This document shows, piece after piece, positions 10,637-18,859 of a DNA stretch of 64,000 bases; position 1 is the stretch's first letter; each line of letters opens with the position of its first letter. The notes under the pieces are model-generated. The model searched no databases and was not told the origin of the DNA. It worked only from the letters and a program-made list of their open reading frames with translations. The DNA is from Pseudanabaena cinerea FACHB-1277. GTDB lineage: Bacteria > Cyanobacteriota > Cyanobacteriia > Pseudanabaenales > Pseudanabaenaceae. Both the position numbers and the translations under genes were made by a program. Location of the stretch: positions 1 to 64,000 of the forward strand of contig NZ_JACJPY010000015.1 in the NCBI RefSeq assembly GCF_014696345.1, in the 5' to 3' direction.

Positions 10637-11560
10637 TTAGGCGTTGACTTTCACAATTTCTTGCAACTTAGTACAAGCTTTAGCAATTGCATCAATACTT
10701 CCAGGATTGACTAGTCCGAAATAGTCGAAGGTGTAAACGCGATCGCTGGTCACGGCATCGAGCTTATTCCAAAAGGGAGTTTCCTTTAATTTATTAATTG
10801 TGCCATCACCCACATCTACGAGAATGAGAACCTGAGGATTTGCTTCTAAAACTTTTTCGGCTGAAAGGGTAATGTAGCCACGCATAGGGCTTTGACCTTG
10901 CAGCTCAGCTGCCGCATTGTTAATTTGGAACTGAGTTAATAAATCCCCTGCCCAGCTATTTTTATTAGGTGCAAGAATTGGTTGCGAACTGACGAGAACA
11001 AGGGTTGATTTGGGATTGGTCGCCTTTGTGGAAATTAAAGATTGATAGGACTGAATTAGGGCAGTGGGGTCAGCCTGTATTTCGGTGGCGATCGCTTTAG
11101 TTAATTCTTCTAAGGACTGCCAACTGGTGATACTAGAGGTCATGGTTTTTATGCCTAACCCCTTCAACTTTTCCAAAATTTGATCGTGAAATCCCGTTGC
11201 TCCAATTACCAAGTCAGGTTTAAGAGCAATGATTTTCTCTAAATTTGGCGGGGTTTGTCCTTCGCTAACTTGAGTGATTTTGGATATTTCGGCATTCTCT
11301 CTCAATAAGCGACTTCCAGGAATACCGACTAGTTTGTTTTTGTCTAAGCGATAGATAATATCGGCAGAGAGTGAAGTTAAGGCAACTACCTTAGAAGCGC
11401 CTACGGGTTTAACTTCGGCGGTGGATGACTGTGCGGGTGTGGTGGGAGCCACAGATTGAGGAGGAGAAGCGGGGTTGCAAGCTACGGTAAATATGGCGAT
11501 TAAGGTAATAATTACCCAATTTCTGAGCGATCGCATAAGTTGAAATACTCGATAAATCAT
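10637..11560 (-). CDS. Periplasmic iron-siderophore/cobalamin-type binding lipoprotein
   Basis: This 307-residue protein has a lipoprotein signal ending in TVAC (Cys28) and a Thr/Ser/Pro linker. A helical-backbone (class III, BtuF/FecB-like) binding domain follows, with KVVALTSLSADIIYRL, LEKIIALKPDLVIG and the C-terminal FGLVNPGSIDAI. It probably delivers ferric chelates or a corrinoid to the FecCD permease and ATPase encoded at 17022-18859 on the same strand. About 5.5 kb of restriction-methylase and toxin-antitoxin DNA now separates them, so the cluster looks interrupted. Substrate choice between iron chelate and B12 cannot be made from sequence; the nearby flavodoxin stub favours iron. Confidence 0.85.
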   Translation of the reverse strand: MIYRVFQLMRSLRNWVIITLIAIFTVACNPASPPQSVAPTTPAQSSTAEVKPVGASKVVALTSLSADIIYRLDKNKLVGIPGSRLLRENAEISKITQVSEGQTPPNLEKIIALKPDLVIGATGFHDQILEKLKGLGIKTMTSSITSWQSLEELTKAIATEIQADPTALIQSYQSLISTKATNPKSTLVLVSSQPILAPNKNSWAGDLLTQFQINNAAAELQGQSPMRGYITLSAEKVLEANPQVLILVDVGDGTINKLKETPFWNKLDAVTSDRVYTFDYFGLVNPGSIDAIAKACTKLQEIVKVNA

Positions 11561-11591
11561 AATTATAGGCTATTAATAATTTGGATCTTGC

Positions 11592-11625
11592 GTAGGGTGC
11601 GTTAGCAGAGCGTAACGCACCCTAC
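11592..11625. repeat. Dispersed hairpin repeat (GTAGGGTGCGTTA family)
   Basis: Thirteen-base arms GTAGGGTGCGTTA and TAACGCACCCTAC flank a short loop. Variants of the same unit occur at 18926-19015, 55853-55903, 56241-56298, 59120-59155 and 60544-60601. It lies directly behind two convergently placed ends and may also terminate transcription. Confidence 0.75.
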
Positions 11626-11628
11626 AAA

Positions 11629-12162
11629 TTACTTGTTCAAAACCTTAGCGATCGCCTGTTTCTGCTCTTCGTCATAGCCCCATTTCTCAAGGAAAGCGGC
11701 ATATTCGCCAGCATTGGTCTTTGCCGAATCTTGCATCTGAGTAGCGATCGCTTGCACTTCAGATAGATCAACTTTCTCAATTAATAGAGCCGTGCGTTTC
11801 GCCACGCGATCAGAACTTTGCGCCTGTGCCTCATCACCATTGCGGCGATGGGTGATTGCCATAGCGGTTGACATGGCGAGGTTTTTGACTAGCAATTCGG
11901 CGATCGCATTGGGGACGGCGTGCAAGGCTTGAATGATCGCGGGGCTAGGATTGTCGGCAAGCTCCCATTCACCTGTCAAGAAGCAGACAAAAAAGCCTCT
12001 AGCTCCATTGGCAGTTTTGACAAGGTTGGTGATTTCCGCTTGCAACTGAGCGTCATTGAGATCGCTGCGCGATAGCAGGGTTTCGGTATAGGCGATCGCT
12101 TCTTCAAAGGTCATGGGCTGCTCATTGTTCATCAACGTAATGTGTCGAAATTGAATACTCAT
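11629..12162 (-). CDS. Conserved hypothetical protein
   Basis: I do not recognise a family. The protein is about 177 residues and almost entirely helical, soluble and acidic at the start (MTFEEAIAYTETLLSR), with a central GARGFFVCFLTGEWELADNP segment and a C-terminal KWGYDEEQKQAIAKVL helix. The start was set at the ATG at 12162 because GGAG stands eight to ten bases before it. A TTG fifteen bases upstream would overlap that ribosome-binding site. It lies between the HicA fusion gene and the binding-protein gene. Confidence 0.6.
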   Translation of the reverse strand: MSIQFRHITLMNNEQPMTFEEAIAYTETLLSRSDLNDAQLQAEITNLVKTANGARGFFVCFLTGEWELADNPSPAIIQALHAVPNAIAELLVKNLAMSTAMAITHRRNGDEAQAQSSDRVAKRTALLIEKVDLSEVQAIATQMQDSAKTNAGEYAAFLEKWGYDEEQKQAIAKVLNK

Positions 12163-12256
12163 TTTTAATTGCTCCAAAATTTAAAAAGTTATATATCTCT
12201 GTCGCGCCATGCGTTCATGATTTTATCGGTCTGTGGATGTCGCATATTTGTCATGC

Positions 12257-13807
12257 CTAATTTTTTGGTATTCCCAAATCTGATAAGCCTTTGACTATTT
12301 TAACGGTTTCTAAACTAACAGTGATTACTTGCTTAATCAATCTCACGATGTATTCTTCGTCATCAAGGCGATTGGGATCGTTGGTGATGCCGCTTCGTTT
12401 GTCGGTGCTGACTTGGTATTGATCGATGATCCAGTCTAGGGCGGAACGGTTGCCTAGTTTGTATTCAAAGGTTTCTGGGGGAATACCTGCAAGCGTGAGG
12501 AAGTCGTTATATTTGATTTGGGTTTTGTCTTTGCTAAGGCGCATTTTTTCGACTCGCCAATCAATTGGCAGGTCTTTATTTTCAATATATTTGAGGCGAT
12601 ATTCTGGTTGTTGTTCGTAGTTGATATGGATTTCGGTGAGGCGTTTTCCTGCTGTGGCAAAGGGATGAAACTCTGGTGCGAAAGGGATGCGCGGTAGTTC
12701 GCGTTTGAGGTTGGCGGCGTAACGTTGACGATAGTGGGGATGATGGAGTAGGGCGTAGGTGTAATGGAAGATGTCCCATTTGGTAATTTTGGGATCTTGA
12801 TAATGGGTTTGAAATTGTTCTAACGCCCAATCAGTGATGTTTTCGCGGCGGTTAGTTCCATCTTCATCATAGAAATAGAAAGGGAAGCATTGAGTAGTAC
12901 ATCCAGATCCATTTAGATGTAAATCACTAATCTGATTTGAACCAATCACCAAAAATGGTTTCTCAGATCCTGAACCTGTAAGACAAATTACCTGATTCTT
13001 TTTTTCTATTTCAAGGTTGGGGAAGATGTAAGGAAATAGCCCACGTCGATCATTTAGAGTGTCGTCAAAGTATAGAAATTGCTTACAAAACGGACGATAC
13101 AAAGCAAATCTAATTTGCTCAGAATTGTAATTATTTAATACCCCTCTTTTTAAATATATTTTGAGGGTACTACTCCAGCTAATTTTTGAGTCATCGTAAG
13201 TTACAAAATCATCAGCATTAGTTAGTTTTGCTCCTTTCTGATTCCATCGATTTACCTGTTCGTTATAAGCATCAATAGTTTTCTGGATATTACTAGATAG
13301 CTCATCTGAGTTAAAGTTGTAAACCCAAGCATCACGGCTAGAATGTAAACCATTGCTAAATACCTGAAAAATTGAATCTACAGAATCATCTTGTCGAGAT
13401 CTAGAATCTTTATTGCCAATTGAGATGAACTCACTAAATTCATCTTCCATCCCATTAGTTAGCCAAATATATTTTTTGTCTGGTTGAATCTCTTGCCAAT
13501 CAACATTTTGAAGACTTTCAAACTTCTCCAAACAACTTAACTTCTGTTCCTTGCGCCAAAACTCATCCATCCGCGCATAGTAGATTTCGGCTCTTTTGAC
13601 ATCCTCTGGTTTTAGCCCCGTTTTTTTAGCAATGTCAGTGAGCTTAGTCGCTTCGATTAGATCGTTATCGGCAAAAGTGAAAACATAATCATCACAGCCG
13701 TCACGTTCTAGAATCTTGTGCGATCCAGTTTGACGCTTAACTTTCCATCCAATTTTTTCTAGTGCGGCTAATACTTTTCTTGGTTTTGCAGACGACCATT
13801 GACTCAT
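12257..13807 (-). CDS. Fusion: HicA-type toxin domain joined to type ISP methyltransferase specificity domain
   Basis: Residues 1 to about 70 are a complete HicA (YcfA) double-stranded-RNA-binding-like mRNA interferase domain with the key His30 in RQTGSHKIL. From about residue 71 (KRAEIYYARMDEFWRKEQK) the protein is the C-terminal target-recognition part of a type ISP/LlaBIII-like restriction-modification methyltransferase: LYRPFCKQFLYFD, CFPFYFYDEDGTNRRENI, HYTYALLHHPHYRQRY and LDWIIDQYQV. The catalytic half of that enzyme lies upstream at 15576-16930 as a pseudogene. HicA thus sits in the insertion that split the gene and has captured the downstream half in frame. HicB is 12 bases upstream. 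Whether the long product is made, or HicA is still toxic, cannot be told. Confidence 0.85.
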   Translation of the reverse strand: MSQWSSAKPRKVLAALEKIGWKVKRQTGSHKILERDGCDDYVFTFADNDLIEATKLTDIAKKTGLKPEDVKRAEIYYARMDEFWRKEQKLSCLEKFESLQNVDWQEIQPDKKYIWLTNGMEDEFSEFISIGNKDSRSRQDDSVDSIFQVFSNGLHSSRDAWVYNFNSDELSSNIQKTIDAYNEQVNRWNQKGAKLTNADDFVTYDDSKISWSSTLKIYLKRGVLNNYNSEQIRFALYRPFCKQFLYFDDTLNDRRGLFPYIFPNLEIEKKNQVICLTGSGSEKPFLVIGSNQISDLHLNGSGCTTQCFPFYFYDEDGTNRRENITDWALEQFQTHYQDPKITKWDIFHYTYALLHHPHYRQRYAANLKRELPRIPFAPEFHPFATAGKRLTEIHINYEQQPEYRLKYIENKDLPIDWRVEKMRLSKDKTQIKYNDFLTLAGIPPETFEYKLGNRSALDWIIDQYQVSTDKRSGITNDPNRLDDEEYIVRLIKQVITVSLETVKIVKGLSDLGIPKN

Positions 13808-13819
13808 GATAATAAATTC

Positions 13820-14044
13820 CTACATTGCCACAAAGTCAAAACTAGTCAAACCCAAAGCCATTTCTCCATGCTCTAACTTGTCAGCAATAATCCGTAACGC
13901 TAGAGCTTGAACATTTGCGATCGCCTGTTGTTGACTATTTCCATAGACTAAAGCGCCCGAAATTTCGAGGATTTCAGCAATCCAGCGACCATCATCTTCT
14001 TGCTCTGTTTCAATGGTGAAATGATTAGAAATATGTTGTGTCAT
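13820..14044 (-). CDS. hicB: HicB-like antitoxin
   Basis: The 74 residues show the partial RNase H-like HicB fold: FTIETEQEDDGRWIAEILEISGALVYG then QQQAIANVQALALRIIADKLEHGE. There is no separate C-terminal DNA-binding domain, as in the shortest HicB proteins. It precedes the HicA domain gene by 12 bases, in the antitoxin-first order common for HicB-HicA pairs in cyanobacteria. It should bind and neutralise HicA. Confidence 0.8.
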   Translation of the reverse strand: MTQHISNHFTIETEQEDDGRWIAEILEISGALVYGNSQQQAIANVQALALRIIADKLEHGEMALGLTSFDFVAM

Positions 14045-14054
14045 AATGCTTTCC

Positions 14055-14330
14055 TTAATAAATATCTCCCCTAAAATCTATCGCATAAATGAGTAATTCA
14101 TTTTGTTCAAAATCAATTACATATATAACCCTGATTTTCCCAATCCTTAGCCTTGAGAAGCCATCCCAAGAACCTTTTAATGGCTTGACATCAAGTTCTT
14201 TAGAGATAATTGAATCTGGCTTTTCCGCTAAATCAAGTAAATAGAGAATTTTAGCTTTGATTTTTTCGCTATCTTTGGGTGGAATCTTTTCAAGAAACTT
14301 GATCGCATTTTTACTTAAAACTAGTTTCAT
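14055..14330 (-). CDS. RelE/ParE-superfamily toxin
   Basis: This basic 91-residue protein has the RelE fold pattern: helical start (LSKNAIKFLEKIPPKDSEKI), VKPLKGSWDGFSRLRIGKIRVIYVID and a final beta strand (ELLIYAIDFRGDIY). RelE members cleave mRNA at the ribosome, ParE members poison gyrase; the GSWDG-SRLRIG-IRVIY core fits the RelE/mRNase side. It overlaps the DUF433 gene by 20 bases, so the two are translated together. Confidence 0.85.
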   Translation of the reverse strand: MKLVLSKNAIKFLEKIPPKDSEKIKAKILYLLDLAEKPDSIISKELDVKPLKGSWDGFSRLRIGKIRVIYVIDFEQNELLIYAIDFRGDIY

Positions 14331-14739
14331 TTCTCACCCAATCTGTCATATCTACAAATTCGGATCTGTCATAATCAGATGGCGAACCAAAATGATCCTC
14401 AATATCCGCTTGTTCTTCATCACTGACACAAGGCATCTGAGAGAAGATAAAAGCAAATTTCTCCTTTCTCAAAACCTCGTTCATTGTCTCTTGGACAGTC
14501 TGTTGAACAACCTCTTTGAGTCCTTGAGTCTCTAGATTGACTCTTAATGTCGTAGCCACATACTGTAGAACCTCTTGTATGTCCTCTGCCTCTAAATCAG
14601 GGAATGCCTGTAAAATTTCTTGATCCCGCATTCCATCAGCAAACATATCAAAGATAGTGGTAACAGGTATTCTCAAAGAGCGAATACATGGCACACCACC
14701 CATTTTTTGAGGATTAGTTGTAATTCTCGCAAATTGCAT
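14311..14739 (-). CDS. DUF433-domain antitoxin for the adjacent RelE-type toxin
   Basis: Residues 1 to about 75 are a DUF433 helix-turn-helix (PQKMGGVPCIRSLRIPVTTI, GMRDQEILQAFPDLEAEDI). A coiled linker and an acidic tail (SDEEQADIEDHFGSPSDYD, SEFVDMTDWV) follow, and the tail has the look of RelB/RelN-type toxin-binding segments. Usually DUF433 is the antitoxin of a DUF5615 PIN-like toxin, as in the two pairs near 61-62.7 kb. Here it is paired with RelE, with a tail to match. It probably binds its own promoter. Confidence 0.75.
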   Translation of the reverse strand: MQFARITTNPQKMGGVPCIRSLRIPVTTIFDMFADGMRDQEILQAFPDLEAEDIQEVLQYVATTLRVNLETQGLKEVVQQTVQETMNEVLRKEKFAFIFSQMPCVSDEEQADIEDHFGSPSDYDRSEFVDMTDWVRNETSFK

Positions 14740-14760
14740 AGCTGATTTAACCTCTAACGC

Positions 14761-14847
14761 TTTCTTACAAATATATTAACATTTACCCAAACTTGGATGT
14801 CAAACACATTGTAAATAGATTTGGAAGTGTGTTTACGGATATTATCA
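14761..14847 (-). pseudogene. Diverged second copy of a methyltransferase segment
   Basis: Read on the minus strand this stretch gives NIRKHTSKSIYNVFDIQV followed by VNVNIFVRKR and a stop. That corresponds residue by residue to GNIRKNPKLSGTTHNVFGIQV and VSVNIFIRRK, the end of the methyltransferase catalytic half at about 15601-15691. The two DNA copies agree at roughly four of five bases over their first 48 positions, with mostly transition differences. They lie as direct repeats on either side of XisI and XisH. Confidence 0.75.
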
Positions 14848-14851
14848 CAAA

Positions 14852-15166
14852 TTAAACAGCTTGAAATTCAGGTAAAAAAGCAAGCACAATATCTCGTTCA
14901 GGAATCCCTTTCTCTATCAAATCCTGAGTAATTCCACTCTCAATTCCATCATATTCAATTAAAACTTTATTGTCTTTGATACTCACATAAATCAAATTAC
15001 CACGCACACGTCGATCTCTATCCCAACCGAATTGCATTAGTGCATAGCGACTATTCACATCATCAAATATCGGCTCTAAGTGAATATTGCCATGAGACGG
15101 ACGGAACTTAGCATATTCACTAATTACTTGCTTGATTACTGCTTGGTAGGATTTGATGGTATCCAT
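14852..15166 (-). CDS. xisI: XisI-like protein (fdxN element excision controlling factor family)
   Basis: The 104 residues follow the XisI pattern: start MDTIKSYQAVIKQVISEYAK, then HGNIHLEPIFDDVNSRYALMQFGWDRDRRV and LIEYDGIESGITQDLIEKGIP with DIVLAF at the end. XisI and XisH were named for their need in excision of the fdxN element in heterocysts of Anabaena. Most copies in cyanobacteria are not linked to such elements and their general role is unsettled. The gene overlaps xisH by 31 bases. Confidence 0.9.
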   Translation of the reverse strand: MDTIKSYQAVIKQVISEYAKFRPSHGNIHLEPIFDDVNSRYALMQFGWDRDRRVRGNLIYVSIKDNKVLIEYDGIESGITQDLIEKGIPERDIVLAFLPEFQAV

Positions 15167-15570
15167 TGAGTTATCTCCTTAGTACTTAGATTTACGATAA
15201 CAAGTTTTAACGGGATTTCAGCGATCGCTAGTTTACCAATTGGTTCATTAAATATATCGCTATAAGTTGCCTCAGAAATTGCCAAATACAGATCACGCTC
15301 TGGGTCAATCTGATTGAGCAATATGCGATACAAAGAATATTGCCCGATCGCTTGCTCTAAGTCATTAACTTGAGACTGACCTCGAAACTGTTTGATTTCG
15401 ATGGCAATTTGTTTATTTCCTTGCTGAAGCCCAATAAACCCACTTGCACCAAGATCAACAAACAAAAAGCGATCGCCATAGGAAATAACATAGGGATCGT
15501 CAGTAATTTCCCATCCATCTTTAATAACTGCTTCTTTTACAGTTTCATGAATGGAATCTCTAGCTGGCAA
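15136..15570 (-). CDS. xisH: XisH-like protein with PD-(D/E)XK nuclease-like core
   Basis: This 144-residue XisH family member begins MPARDSIHETVKEAVIKDGW. The core FVDLGASG...QIAIEIKQF (Asp about 54, E-x-K about 76-78) has the D...ExK spacing of PD-(D/E)XK nucleases, the clan in which the family is placed. A TTG start at 15570 follows a GGAG ribosome-binding site and lies five bases after the end of the truncated methyltransferase half. It is coupled to xisI. Together with xisI it is flanked by the duplicated methyltransferase segment. Confidence 0.9.
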   Translation of the reverse strand: MPARDSIHETVKEAVIKDGWEITDDPYVISYGDRFLFVDLGASGFIGLQQGNKQIAIEIKQFRGQSQVNDLEQAIGQYSLYRILLNQIDPERDLYLAISEATYSDIFNEPIGKLAIAEIPLKLVIVNLSTKEITQWIPSNPTKQ

Positions 15571-15575
15571 ATTGT

Positions 15576-16930
15576 TTACTCCTCATCTATTACTTTTCTT
15601 CTTATAAAAATATTAACACTTACCCCAACCTGAATGCCAAAAACATTATGAGTTGTACCTGATAATTTAGGGTTCTTGCGAATATTGCCGCCTAAATCAA
15701 ACACATAAATTTGATCAAATTCCTGTTCTAAATATTGACGCATTCCATCAAACGCAATCCCATCAATAAAACTGTTGTTAGTCACAAATGCAACCACTCC
15801 TTCATCACCAATTCTATCCGATGCCCAACGAATTGCTTTCACATAGGGATCGGAAAGAGAATTTTTTAAAGTTGCCTTTGAAGCTTTGGCATAGGTAGCT
15901 GCCACGCGATCGTCAATCCCAGTCTTGTTTTTAGTCTGGTACTTGCGATTCTTATTGTTATCATTCTCATTCAACTGTCCCACATTGTATGGAGGATTCC
16001 CAATCACCACAAATAAATCTGACTCCCTTTGTCTCTCCACCCGTTTCATATTCTCAGGCGTAAACAACCCCAACTGCTCAATACGCTGATCCTCAAACGT
16101 ATCCACCAAACAAATCCCCTCAAACGCCTCATACTTCCCAGTCTACTCAAAATACTCATGCTCAATATTCATCGAAGCAATGTAATAGGGCAACAACATC
16201 ACCTCATTGCAATGCAACTCATGCTCATACTTGTGAGGCAAAGCCGACTTCTGGATTTCCGCAATCTCGCGCATCACCCGCATAATGAAATTTCCCGTAC
16301 CCACAAACGGATCGAGAATATGCACCCCCTTATCTACAAGCGACTTGCCAAACTCCCGTTGCAAAATCTCCTCCACACTCTTCACCATGAAATTCACAAT
16401 CGGCTGCGGTGTATACACAATCCCATGCGTATCCGCCACCTTTGTCGAAAAGCCCTGAAAGAACTTCTCATAGACCGTATTCAAAAAATCCTGCTTTTGC
16501 GAAAAATCATCAATCGTAGCCGCCGTCTCCTCGATCGCCCCATAAAACCGATCCAAACTACTCAAAAAATGAGCGCGGCTGAAATGCTTAGAAGTCAAGG
16601 CATTGATCACCTTCTCAATCTCAACCGCAATAATATTTCTCTGAGCAAAATCAGGATTATTAAACACACTCCGAAAAATTCGTTCCGTTAGCAAATGCTG
16701 AATCAACATCTCCTCAACCGCCGATTCTGCCAAATTAGGATTAATCGACTGCCGACACAGCAACATAAACGCCGCAAATGCATCGATAAATTTTTTGTTA
16801 GTTTTCTCCTGTACCCGAATTAGCTCCAGCAAAGCCGTAGCATGATCCTTCACGCGATCGCCAAATTCTTCAGCCGCCTTTTCCCATTGCGCGATCGCTG
16901 GCGCACGATATTCAAAAAACTGGCGGACGA
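15576..16930 (-). pseudogene. Type ISP-like adenine DNA methyltransferase, catalytic half: 5' truncated, nonsense mutation, 3' end lost to insertion
   Basis: One frame runs on the minus strand from about 16930 (SSVIVRQFFEYRAP) to 15576. It holds the helical region, SAM motif I (HILDPFVGTGNF) and catalytic NPPY (VVIGNPPYNVGQLNENDNNKNR), typical of gamma-type N6-adenine methyltransferases of type ISP/IIG systems. An in-frame TAG at 16143-16145 breaks it (HEYFE-stop-TGKYEAFEGICLVDTFE). The frame then ends IFIRRKVIDEE-stop where XisH begins. The N-terminal nuclease/helicase part expected of the family is absent. The specificity half survives as the HicA fusion at 12257-13807. Neither piece alone should methylate DNA. 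Confidence 0.88.
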
Positions 16931-17021
16931 TAACACTACTATAGACTGTGTAAGAAAATAAATACGATCGCTTCGGTGAATTATTGACCTATTCAAGGGA
17001 TGATTGCCATCTCCCTAATAC

Positions 17022-17843
17022 TTATTCTAAAGTATGCGATGGCGAGAGCAAACAGATCTGCAATCCCACAGGCGTAATGATCGTCACCGCTTCCACATCA
17101 AAAACTTGACGGAGATTGTCAGGAGTGATGACATCAGCCGATCGCCCGATCGCTATGATCTCACCCTGCTTTAACATCACTAGGCGATCGCTATAACGAA
17201 CCGCCAGATTAATATCATGCAGCACCGTAATAATCGACAATTGATGTTCTTGGTTGAGGGTCTTCAGCAGTTCTAATAGTTCTAATTGATGATGTAAATC
17301 CAAAAATGTAGTTGGTTCATCTAGTAAGAGAACTTGAGGATTTTGGGCTAGGGTTAATGCTAGGAAAGCCCTTTGGCGCTCACCACCCGAAAGCTGTTCG
17401 ACAGGGCGATCGCTTAATGCCGTAAGTTGCGTTTGGGCGATCGCTATCTCCACCATTTGCCGATCCTCTGCATTCAGATCCCATTGCCACCAAGGTTGAT
17501 GGGGCGTGCGTCCTAGACTCACTAGTTGCCTTACCGTCAAACCCGATGGAATCGTCTGCTGTTGTGGCAAAATCGCTAACTGTCGGGCGACCACATTGGC
17601 GGGCTGTTGATGAATGGCTTTCCCATCCAGTAAAACCACGCCTGTTTGCGGTGTCAGAATTCGACTGCATAGCTTCAACAAAGTTGATTTACCAGAACCA
17701 TTTGCCCCCACCAAACTCAACCATTCGCCTTTATGGAGAGATAGGGACACATCCTGCAAAATTGTCTGCTTGCCATAGCCACCGACTAGATTTTGTACCT
17801 CTAGCAATGCTTCAGCAAGATTATAGGAATCATGATTATCCAT
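17022..17843 (-). CDS. ABC transporter ATPase, iron-siderophore/B12 type
   Basis: This 273-residue FecE/BtuD-type ATPase has Walker A GANGSGKST (residues 46-54), a Q-loop, signature LSGGERQR, Walker B VLLLDEPTTFLDL and H-loop LHDINLA. The ATG at 17843 lies two bases after the permease stop and starts directly before the conserved domain. An upstream in-frame start would run 165 bases into the permease gene and is rejected. The gene energises uptake with the FecCD permease and the binding lipoprotein at 10637-11560. Confidence 0.92.
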   Translation of the reverse strand: MDNHDSYNLAEALLEVQNLVGGYGKQTILQDVSLSLHKGEWLSLVGANGSGKSTLLKLCSRILTPQTGVVLLDGKAIHQQPANVVARQLAILPQQQTIPSGLTVRQLVSLGRTPHQPWWQWDLNAEDRQMVEIAIAQTQLTALSDRPVEQLSGGERQRAFLALTLAQNPQVLLLDEPTTFLDLHHQLELLELLKTLNQEHQLSIITVLHDINLAVRYSDRLVMLKQGEIIAIGRSADVITPDNLRQVFDVEAVTIITPVGLQICLLSPSHTLE

Positions 17844-17845
17844 TA

Positions 17846-18859
17846 CTAACCTCTCTGACCGCGCCGATAGAGTAACCAAATAAATAATGGCGACCCCAGT
17901 AGCGCCGTCACTGCGCCCACAGGTAATTCCACCGTACCGAGTCGCGATAGCAAATCCGCAAGCGTCAACACCCAAGCACCACCAATCGCGGAGCATGGCA
18001 AAATCCATCGGTAATCAGAACCGACGAGCAAGCGCACACCATGAGGTACGACTAAGCCGACAAAACCGATTAGCCCCGCCATGCTGACAGCACTCGCTGC
18101 CAGTAAACTCGCCACTGCGCCGATCGCTAAACGCGATCGCACTAACGAAGTTCCCAATCCTGAGGCGAGGTCGTCGCCAAGATTCAGCAAATTCAATGGA
18201 CGAGCTAATAGACAACCTGCGATTAGCGCCATACCCACATAGAGACCAACATTATTCACCTCAGCCCAGCCGCGCCCATTGAGGCTACCAATTAGCCAAT
18301 TCAATGCCGATTGAATCCTGCCATCATCCGCAAGCAGGAGCAGCGTAGTTTGGATTGCGCCAAACATGGAACTAATCGCCACACCCGCCAAAATCAAGCG
18401 CTCAACGGATAGCCCCCCGCCCAAATAGCCAAGGGTATAAACGAGAGTTGCCGTAGCGATCGCACCTACCCATGCGCCTATGGGAACTAAGGTTTGGACT
18501 ACGCCAAGGGTAATCATGGCGATCGCCACGAGTCCCGCCCCTGCGGAAATGCCCAACACAAAGGGATCGGCAAGTCCATTTCGCAACATTCCTTGCAGCA
18601 AAGCTCCTGACATTCCCAGCGCCGCACCGACCACCATCGCGGCAATGATGCGCGGTAATCGCAATTCCCAAATAATCGTTTGATTGACCGATTCGCCTTG
18701 ATGCCAAAGCGCTTGCCAGAGTTCGTTCCAACTCAGGGGAACAGCCCCTTTGCATAGGGAAACTGCCATTGTCAATAGCAGTCCAATCGTCAACAAACCT
18801 AACGTGGGTAAGAAGCGATCGCGCAGCAAATAATTAAATTTAACTTTCTGAACTAACAT
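17846..18859 (-). CDS. FecCD-family ABC transporter permease
   Basis: This 337-residue protein has about ten transmembrane helices. Family motifs are LRLPRIIAAMVVGAALGMSGALLQG, NPLADP-like NGLADPFVLGISAGAG, and GFVGLVVPHGVRLLVG. It would form a homodimer carrying ferric-siderophore, haem or corrinoid across the inner membrane. The ATPase follows at two bases. Upstream lie a flavodoxin stub and a small inverted-repeat element. No Fur box or cobalamin riboswitch was recognised in the 5' region. Confidence 0.92.
   Translation of the reverse strand: MLVQKVKFNYLLRDRFLPTLGLLTIGLLLTMAVSLCKGAVPLSWNELWQALWHQGESVNQTIIWELRLPRIIAAMVVGAALGMSGALLQGMLRNGLADPFVLGISAGAGLVAIAMITLGVVQTLVPIGAWVGAIATATLVYTLGYLGGGLSVERLILAGVAISSMFGAIQTTLLLLADDGRIQSALNWLIGSLNGRGWAEVNNVGLYVGMALIAGCLLARPLNLLNLGDDLASGLGTSLVRSRLAIGAVASLLAASAVSMAGLIGFVGLVVPHGVRLLVGSDYRWILPCSAIGGAWVLTLADLLSRLGTVELPVGAVTALLGSPLFIWLLYRRGQRG

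Follow-up and report, generated by a model that had tools for sequence, protein, structure and literature searches.

DrdV (PDB 7LO5/7LVV) is a restriction-modification (R-M) enzyme made as a single chain. The two subunits considered here, RM and the specificity subunit S, resemble DrdV when taken together: they total ~1030 aa, have no helicase, and show homology to it over the coupler, the methyltransferase and S. They differ from DrdV in being split into RM and S genes, both in the window (the whole 64,000-nucleotide stretch of Pseudanabaena cinerea FACHB-1277 DNA that was analysed) and in 21 other loci. In the window, the first 140 codons of RM are also missing and a stop interrupts what is left, and S is fused to the toxin HicA. 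The Type ISP enzymes LlaGI and LlaBIII share coupler, methyltransferase and C-terminal specificity domains with this locus, which in contrast has no SF2 helicase and is not one polypeptide. A two-gene RM and S layout is described for Type IIB enzymes such as BsaXI and BcgI (PMC11997821); here, however, S is of the ISP_C kind, and toxin-antitoxin (TA) genes lie between RM and S.

HicAB systems have the GSH-His motif in common with the window, as well as a HicA-like topology in the predicted structure and, with a HicB-like gene in the place of HicB, the HicB-HicA gene order. HicA of the window differs from them in its degenerate C-terminal half, its absent stop and its 446-residue extension. Suicide genes in R-M systems have known precedents, namely PrrC inside EcoprrI and the HEPN genes of R-M operons (PMC3710099, PMC12707154), and PrrC-EcoprrI and other such loci carry a toxin gene within the R-M locus, as here (PMC3506569, PMC3710099). 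What sets the loci described below apart from these is that the genes between RM and S are complete TA pairs, drawn from three toxin families or more, and that these frequently overlap S. Typical antitoxins appear to be absent from immunity loci, according to Makarova et al. (2012; PMC3506569). Neither an RM-TA-S arrangement nor a HicA-specificity fusion was found in the literature searched, which is weak evidence given the incomplete coverage and the partial texts.

The first-pass annotation of the window described an in-frame open reading frame (ORF) that joins HicA to a methyltransferase specificity domain, and this is borne out. The HicA stop is absent, the frame is open throughout its 516 codons from an ATG start with no internal stops, and a HicB-like gene lies directly upstream (Table 1). 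The specificity domain assigned to the C-terminal part is also present, as Type_ISP_C at residues 145-489 (Pfam, 346.5 bits).

Table 1. Features of the fusion locus and the adjoining array in the window.
Feature	Position	Strand	Remarks
Fusion ORF	12257..13807	-	516 aa; HicA domain, residues 1-70, and specificity subunit S, residues 71-516
Specificity subunit S (Type_ISP_C)	12260..13597	-	own start codon absent except internal Met80; PDB match, predicted fold
Diverged tract, ~120 nt	13566..13684	-	spans HicA C-half and HicA/S joint; 67% identity to L031
HicA part	13598..13807	-	GSH-His30 retained; changes at eight conserved positions within residues 41-70
HicB-like antitoxin, 74 aa	13820..14044	-	96% identical to gene preceding hicA in L031
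ParE/RelE toxin	14055..14330	-	PF05016
DUF433 antitoxin-like protein	14311..14739	-	PF04255
Degenerate second RM 3' end (codons 553-586)	14757..14852	-	tblastn 58.8%, E=1e-4; between xisI and DUF433
XisI	14852..15166	-	PF08869
XisH	15136..15570	-	PF08814
RM-subunit remnant (coupler and adenine methyltransferase)	15576..16931	-	98% identical to L022 RM codons 141-586, one stop

The HicA domain with its His30 stood in part. HicA_toxin (PF07927) matches residues 10-40 above its cut-off (30.6 bits against 27), and the His30 in the GSH motif is identical in 12 of 12 relatives. The match is half-length, covering profile positions 2-32 of 58, so that a full-length domain is not recovered, and the family signature is gone from the C-terminal half. 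By contrast, HicA of the related locus L031 spans positions 1-58 of the 58. Within residues 41-70, eight of 22 conserved positions are changed, each to a residue unseen in the 12 relatives. With these eight conserved C-terminal residues gone, the domain is probably weak or inactive as an RNase. Structure prediction of the HicA part alone gave low confidence (pLDDT 61); the best structural matches of this model are HicA structures, and they are weak. The same genome has six other matches to the HicA profile. An origin of the tract from another HicA of this genome was rejected, as the sole copy that tblastn aligned shares 38% identity with the window HicA and differs from it within the tract.

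S has an intact frame over 446 codons. Its C-terminal half shows normal constraint (dN/dS of 0.08-0.12 against relatives) and is ~90% identical in DNA to L029 and L031, and most of its N-terminal half has no blastn match. Because the frame is intact and the C-half normally constrained, S need not be dead. It is predicted to fold well, and the predicted fold matches the C-terminal region of LlaGI/DrdV. The best PDB match is DrdV (7LO5, E=4e-77), followed by LlaGI and LlaBIII. S aligns to DrdV residues 585-1022, and residues 22-584 of the intact L022 RM align to DrdV 18-577 (E=5e-123). Since these alignments adjoin, RM and S correspond to a single DrdV chain interrupted between roughly residues 578 and 585. 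The earlier label "type ISP" is right as far as domains go, with both an ISP coupler and a Type_ISP_C specificity domain present (Pfam); the close family, however, is the helicase-less DrdV type of ~1030 aa. A helicase domain is absent from the L022 RM and from the full-length enzyme of L040, and the RM ORFs begin at the N-terminal domain, so the label names a domain family and not an enzyme class. By eye, the RM N-terminus contains a stretch, IDGALVD...YWEAKD, that looks like a PD-(D/E)xK nuclease.

The catalytic half of the enzyme had been placed 1.8 kb upstream of the fusion. It does begin 1.77 kb away, and it retains ISP_coupler, N6_Mtase and Eco57I domains (Pfam), but it is broken by a 140-codon deletion and a stop. 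Compared with L022 and L025, the remnant lacks the start and the first 140 codons, and thus the N-terminal (putative nuclease) part. An in-frame TAG stands at 16145-16143, where relatives have a sense codon. The loss of RM is recent, because the remnant is still 98% identical to intact RM genes with dN/dS of 0.03-0.04. We found no second RM of the same type in the genome; there is just a 1730-aa ISP paralogue with 37-50% identity. In L028, L029 and L061, RM matches the window at 97-100% identity in its Ma part and at only 67% in the following Mb part, which places exchange breakpoints inside the methyltransferase domain as well.

Relatives were gathered by a genus search, a scan of 84,980 genomes (67 loci), a phylum search (386 cyanobacterial genomes) and tblastn mapping. 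Many loci, including those of Planktothrix, Tychonema, Microcoleus, Okeania and most non-cyanobacteria, encode a single fused protein of ~1030 aa (L034, L037, L040, L041 and others). In 22 loci, counting the one in the window, RM (about 586 aa) and S (about 445 aa) are encoded apart; 20 of the 22 are cyanobacterial. All 20 cyanobacterial split loci have TA genes or their fossils between RM and S. These 20 loci are not 20 independent events, because they are related by descent, though at least six different gene sets occur in them. The sets in the gap are DUF433-RelE, DUF433-DUF5615 (PIN-like), ParDE, HicBA, MNT-HepT, DUF6883-DUF4926 and XisHI. The non-cyanobacterial split loci L047 and L057 have other genes in the gap.

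Elsewhere among the split loci, S stands as a gene by itself; in relatives it starts at an ATG of its own. The stop of an intact hicA and the start of S share the four bases ATGA in L026, L031, L089 and L121. L022, L032, L033, L035 and L090 retain little of hicA beyond its last codons, which finish in the same ATGA at S. The frame overlapping S is a parE-type gene in L023, L039, L051, L082 and L094 and hepT in L066. ATGA alone is weak evidence, because S often continues with AAA or AGA; what counts is a toxin frame ending there. At L022:7816-8004 and L033:4682-4927, HicB frames end in the last HicA codons, with most of hicA deleted and the ATGA joint kept.

In the window this overlap is erased. 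Identity to L031 per 30 bases is mostly 83-97% over hicB and the first 120 bases of hicA, falls to about 67% for roughly 120 bases past that point, and then returns to 77-90%; overall the flanks of the diverged tract are 77-97% identical, mostly about 90%. A net change of -2 nt in the tract removes the ATGA overlap (~13604-13596), and the joint lacks both the ATGA and the TGA that relatives have there. Because the hicA stop and the S start are both erased, S should be translatable only as an extension of HicA. Synonymous sites of the diverged HicA tract are also strongly changed, to saturation for dN/dS on the HicA C-half. This synonymous change resembles what the import of a distant allele would leave more than it does neutral decay. 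A derivation of residues 41-78 from the linker of an unsplit enzyme was rejected, as the linkers examined show no resemblance.

An insertion that restored an open frame, as the first-pass annotation had proposed, is not borne out, since S is a gene of its own in the other split loci and the joint in relatives is ATGA. Recent insertion of a TA cassette into a continuous gene was likewise rejected; all closest relatives (RM 92-98% identical) are split, with S on its own ATG. We instead regard the fusion ORF, with a probability of about two in three, as a by-product of decay in a split DrdV-like RM-TA-S locus, and as an early relic that does no R-M work. In relatives hicB-hicA and S stand in tandem, with the hicA stop and the S start sharing ATGA. 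In this working form, translation of S would be coupled to that of the preceding toxin. In the window, with the overlap lost through the net -2 nt, HicA reads into S, and S would then be made solely as a C-terminal extension of HicA, presumably repressed along with it by the upstream HicB. RM has lost its start and first 140 codons and contains the TAG. Because the RM subunit is absent, S should be unable to direct methylation or cleavage, and since HicA is probably impaired too, an early relic without R-M work is the most likely state. The features of the fusion are read directly from its sequence; its expression, its toxicity and its inactivity are inferred.

Some observations run counter to a relic: S is intact and constrained, the tract has changed at synonymous sites, HicB is preserved, and the predicted HicA fold is weakly HicA-like. 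Given the constraint on S and the saturation of synonymous changes, the fusion may instead be functional or imported. Import would mean that the ~120-nt tract was recombined from a lineage missing from the sample, where HicA and S already formed one protein; the fusion would then be older and perhaps functional in that lineage. Divergence, synonymous sites included, does jump sharply only from ~13684 to ~13566, with flanks mostly ~90% identical to L031; yet searches of 386 cyanobacterial genomes, plasmids, phages and viral contigs turned up no donor, and we consider import unlikely. A functional chimera, in which HicA and a sequence-specific DNA-binding domain form a localised or DNA-regulated RNase checked by HicB, seems to us rather improbable. 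Both frames are open, His30 is kept, the HicB-like gene is upstream and conserved, S is predicted to fold well, and HicA tolerates fusion, as in its fusion to HicB (Slr1999) in Synechocystis 6803 (PMC4963859). Nevertheless, conserved residues are lost from the HicA C-half, S works with the RM subunit in relatives and RM is dead in this genome, and the fusion occurs in one genome only (among 386 cyanobacterial genomes and 67 loci).

The source assembly is a draft in 179 contigs, and a small indel would be enough to shift the frame, so that the true sequence could be two separate genes. We hold such a sequencing or assembly error at the joint to be very improbable, because the tract around the joint carries numerous substitutions and is neither homopolymeric nor identical apart from the joint, and because the ATGA and the TGA of relatives are both missing. 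The same fusion did not recur in the 386 cyanobacterial genomes or the 67 further loci. The idea that fusions of this kind are common was rejected, with none in the genus, 84,980-genome, phylum, plasmid, phage or viral-contig searches. Among the plasmid matches listed, those that extend as far as residues 3-60 carry annotations as type ISP enzymes or as a helicase.

The main interest of the locus is a pattern that recurs in cyanobacteria: complete TA pairs lie between the genes for the two subunits of a single restriction enzyme, and toxin and S often overlap by four bases. Tentatively, RM-TA-S may be a functional restriction class, in which S of a split DrdV-like enzyme is translated overlapping a toxin from one of several unrelated families (HicA, ParE, HepT), so that exchange or loss of S would disturb the TA pair. 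If so, the TA pair would guard a swappable S, either as an addiction lock or as a back-up suicide device, and the HicA-S fusion would be an extreme, permanent coupling. With its simple two-gene setting, the arrangement opens the proposed link between restriction and suicide to testing, and it bears on the claim (PMC3506569) that typical antitoxins are missing from immunity loci.

On the minus strand, the order of the array in the window is RM remnant, xisH, xisI, degenerate RM 3' end, DUF433, parE/relE, hicB-like gene and fusion ORF. The HicB-like protein shows 77-96% identity to genes before hicA in relatives, and hicB is well preserved (three nonsynonymous changes against L031). Its label rests on position and homology, because Pfam and NCBIfam gave no match above threshold. 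The second RM 3' end is apparently a trace of array remodelling. Extra RM 3' ends also occur in the arrays of L033 (6638-6808) and L039 (7155-7361), and L022, L061 and L063 carry additional S 3' ends. XisHI follows S directly in L029, as xisH does in L066, whereas in the window XisHI follows RM directly. These features, together with the contrast between the two halves of S, would fit recombination between repeated ends that exchanges segments of S and whole gene sets. S is far more variable than RM, with 65-77% identity across loci, compared with 92-100% for RM in most of them. At L022:4713-5198, an XisH with a large internal deletion lies beside an intact XisI, upstream of RM and not between RM and S. 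The whole island of the window appears to sit within a metal/iron-type ABC transporter cluster (10637-18859), with, as judged from sequence, a permease (17846-18859) and an ATPase (17022-18008) on one side and a substrate-binding protein (10637-11560) on the other.
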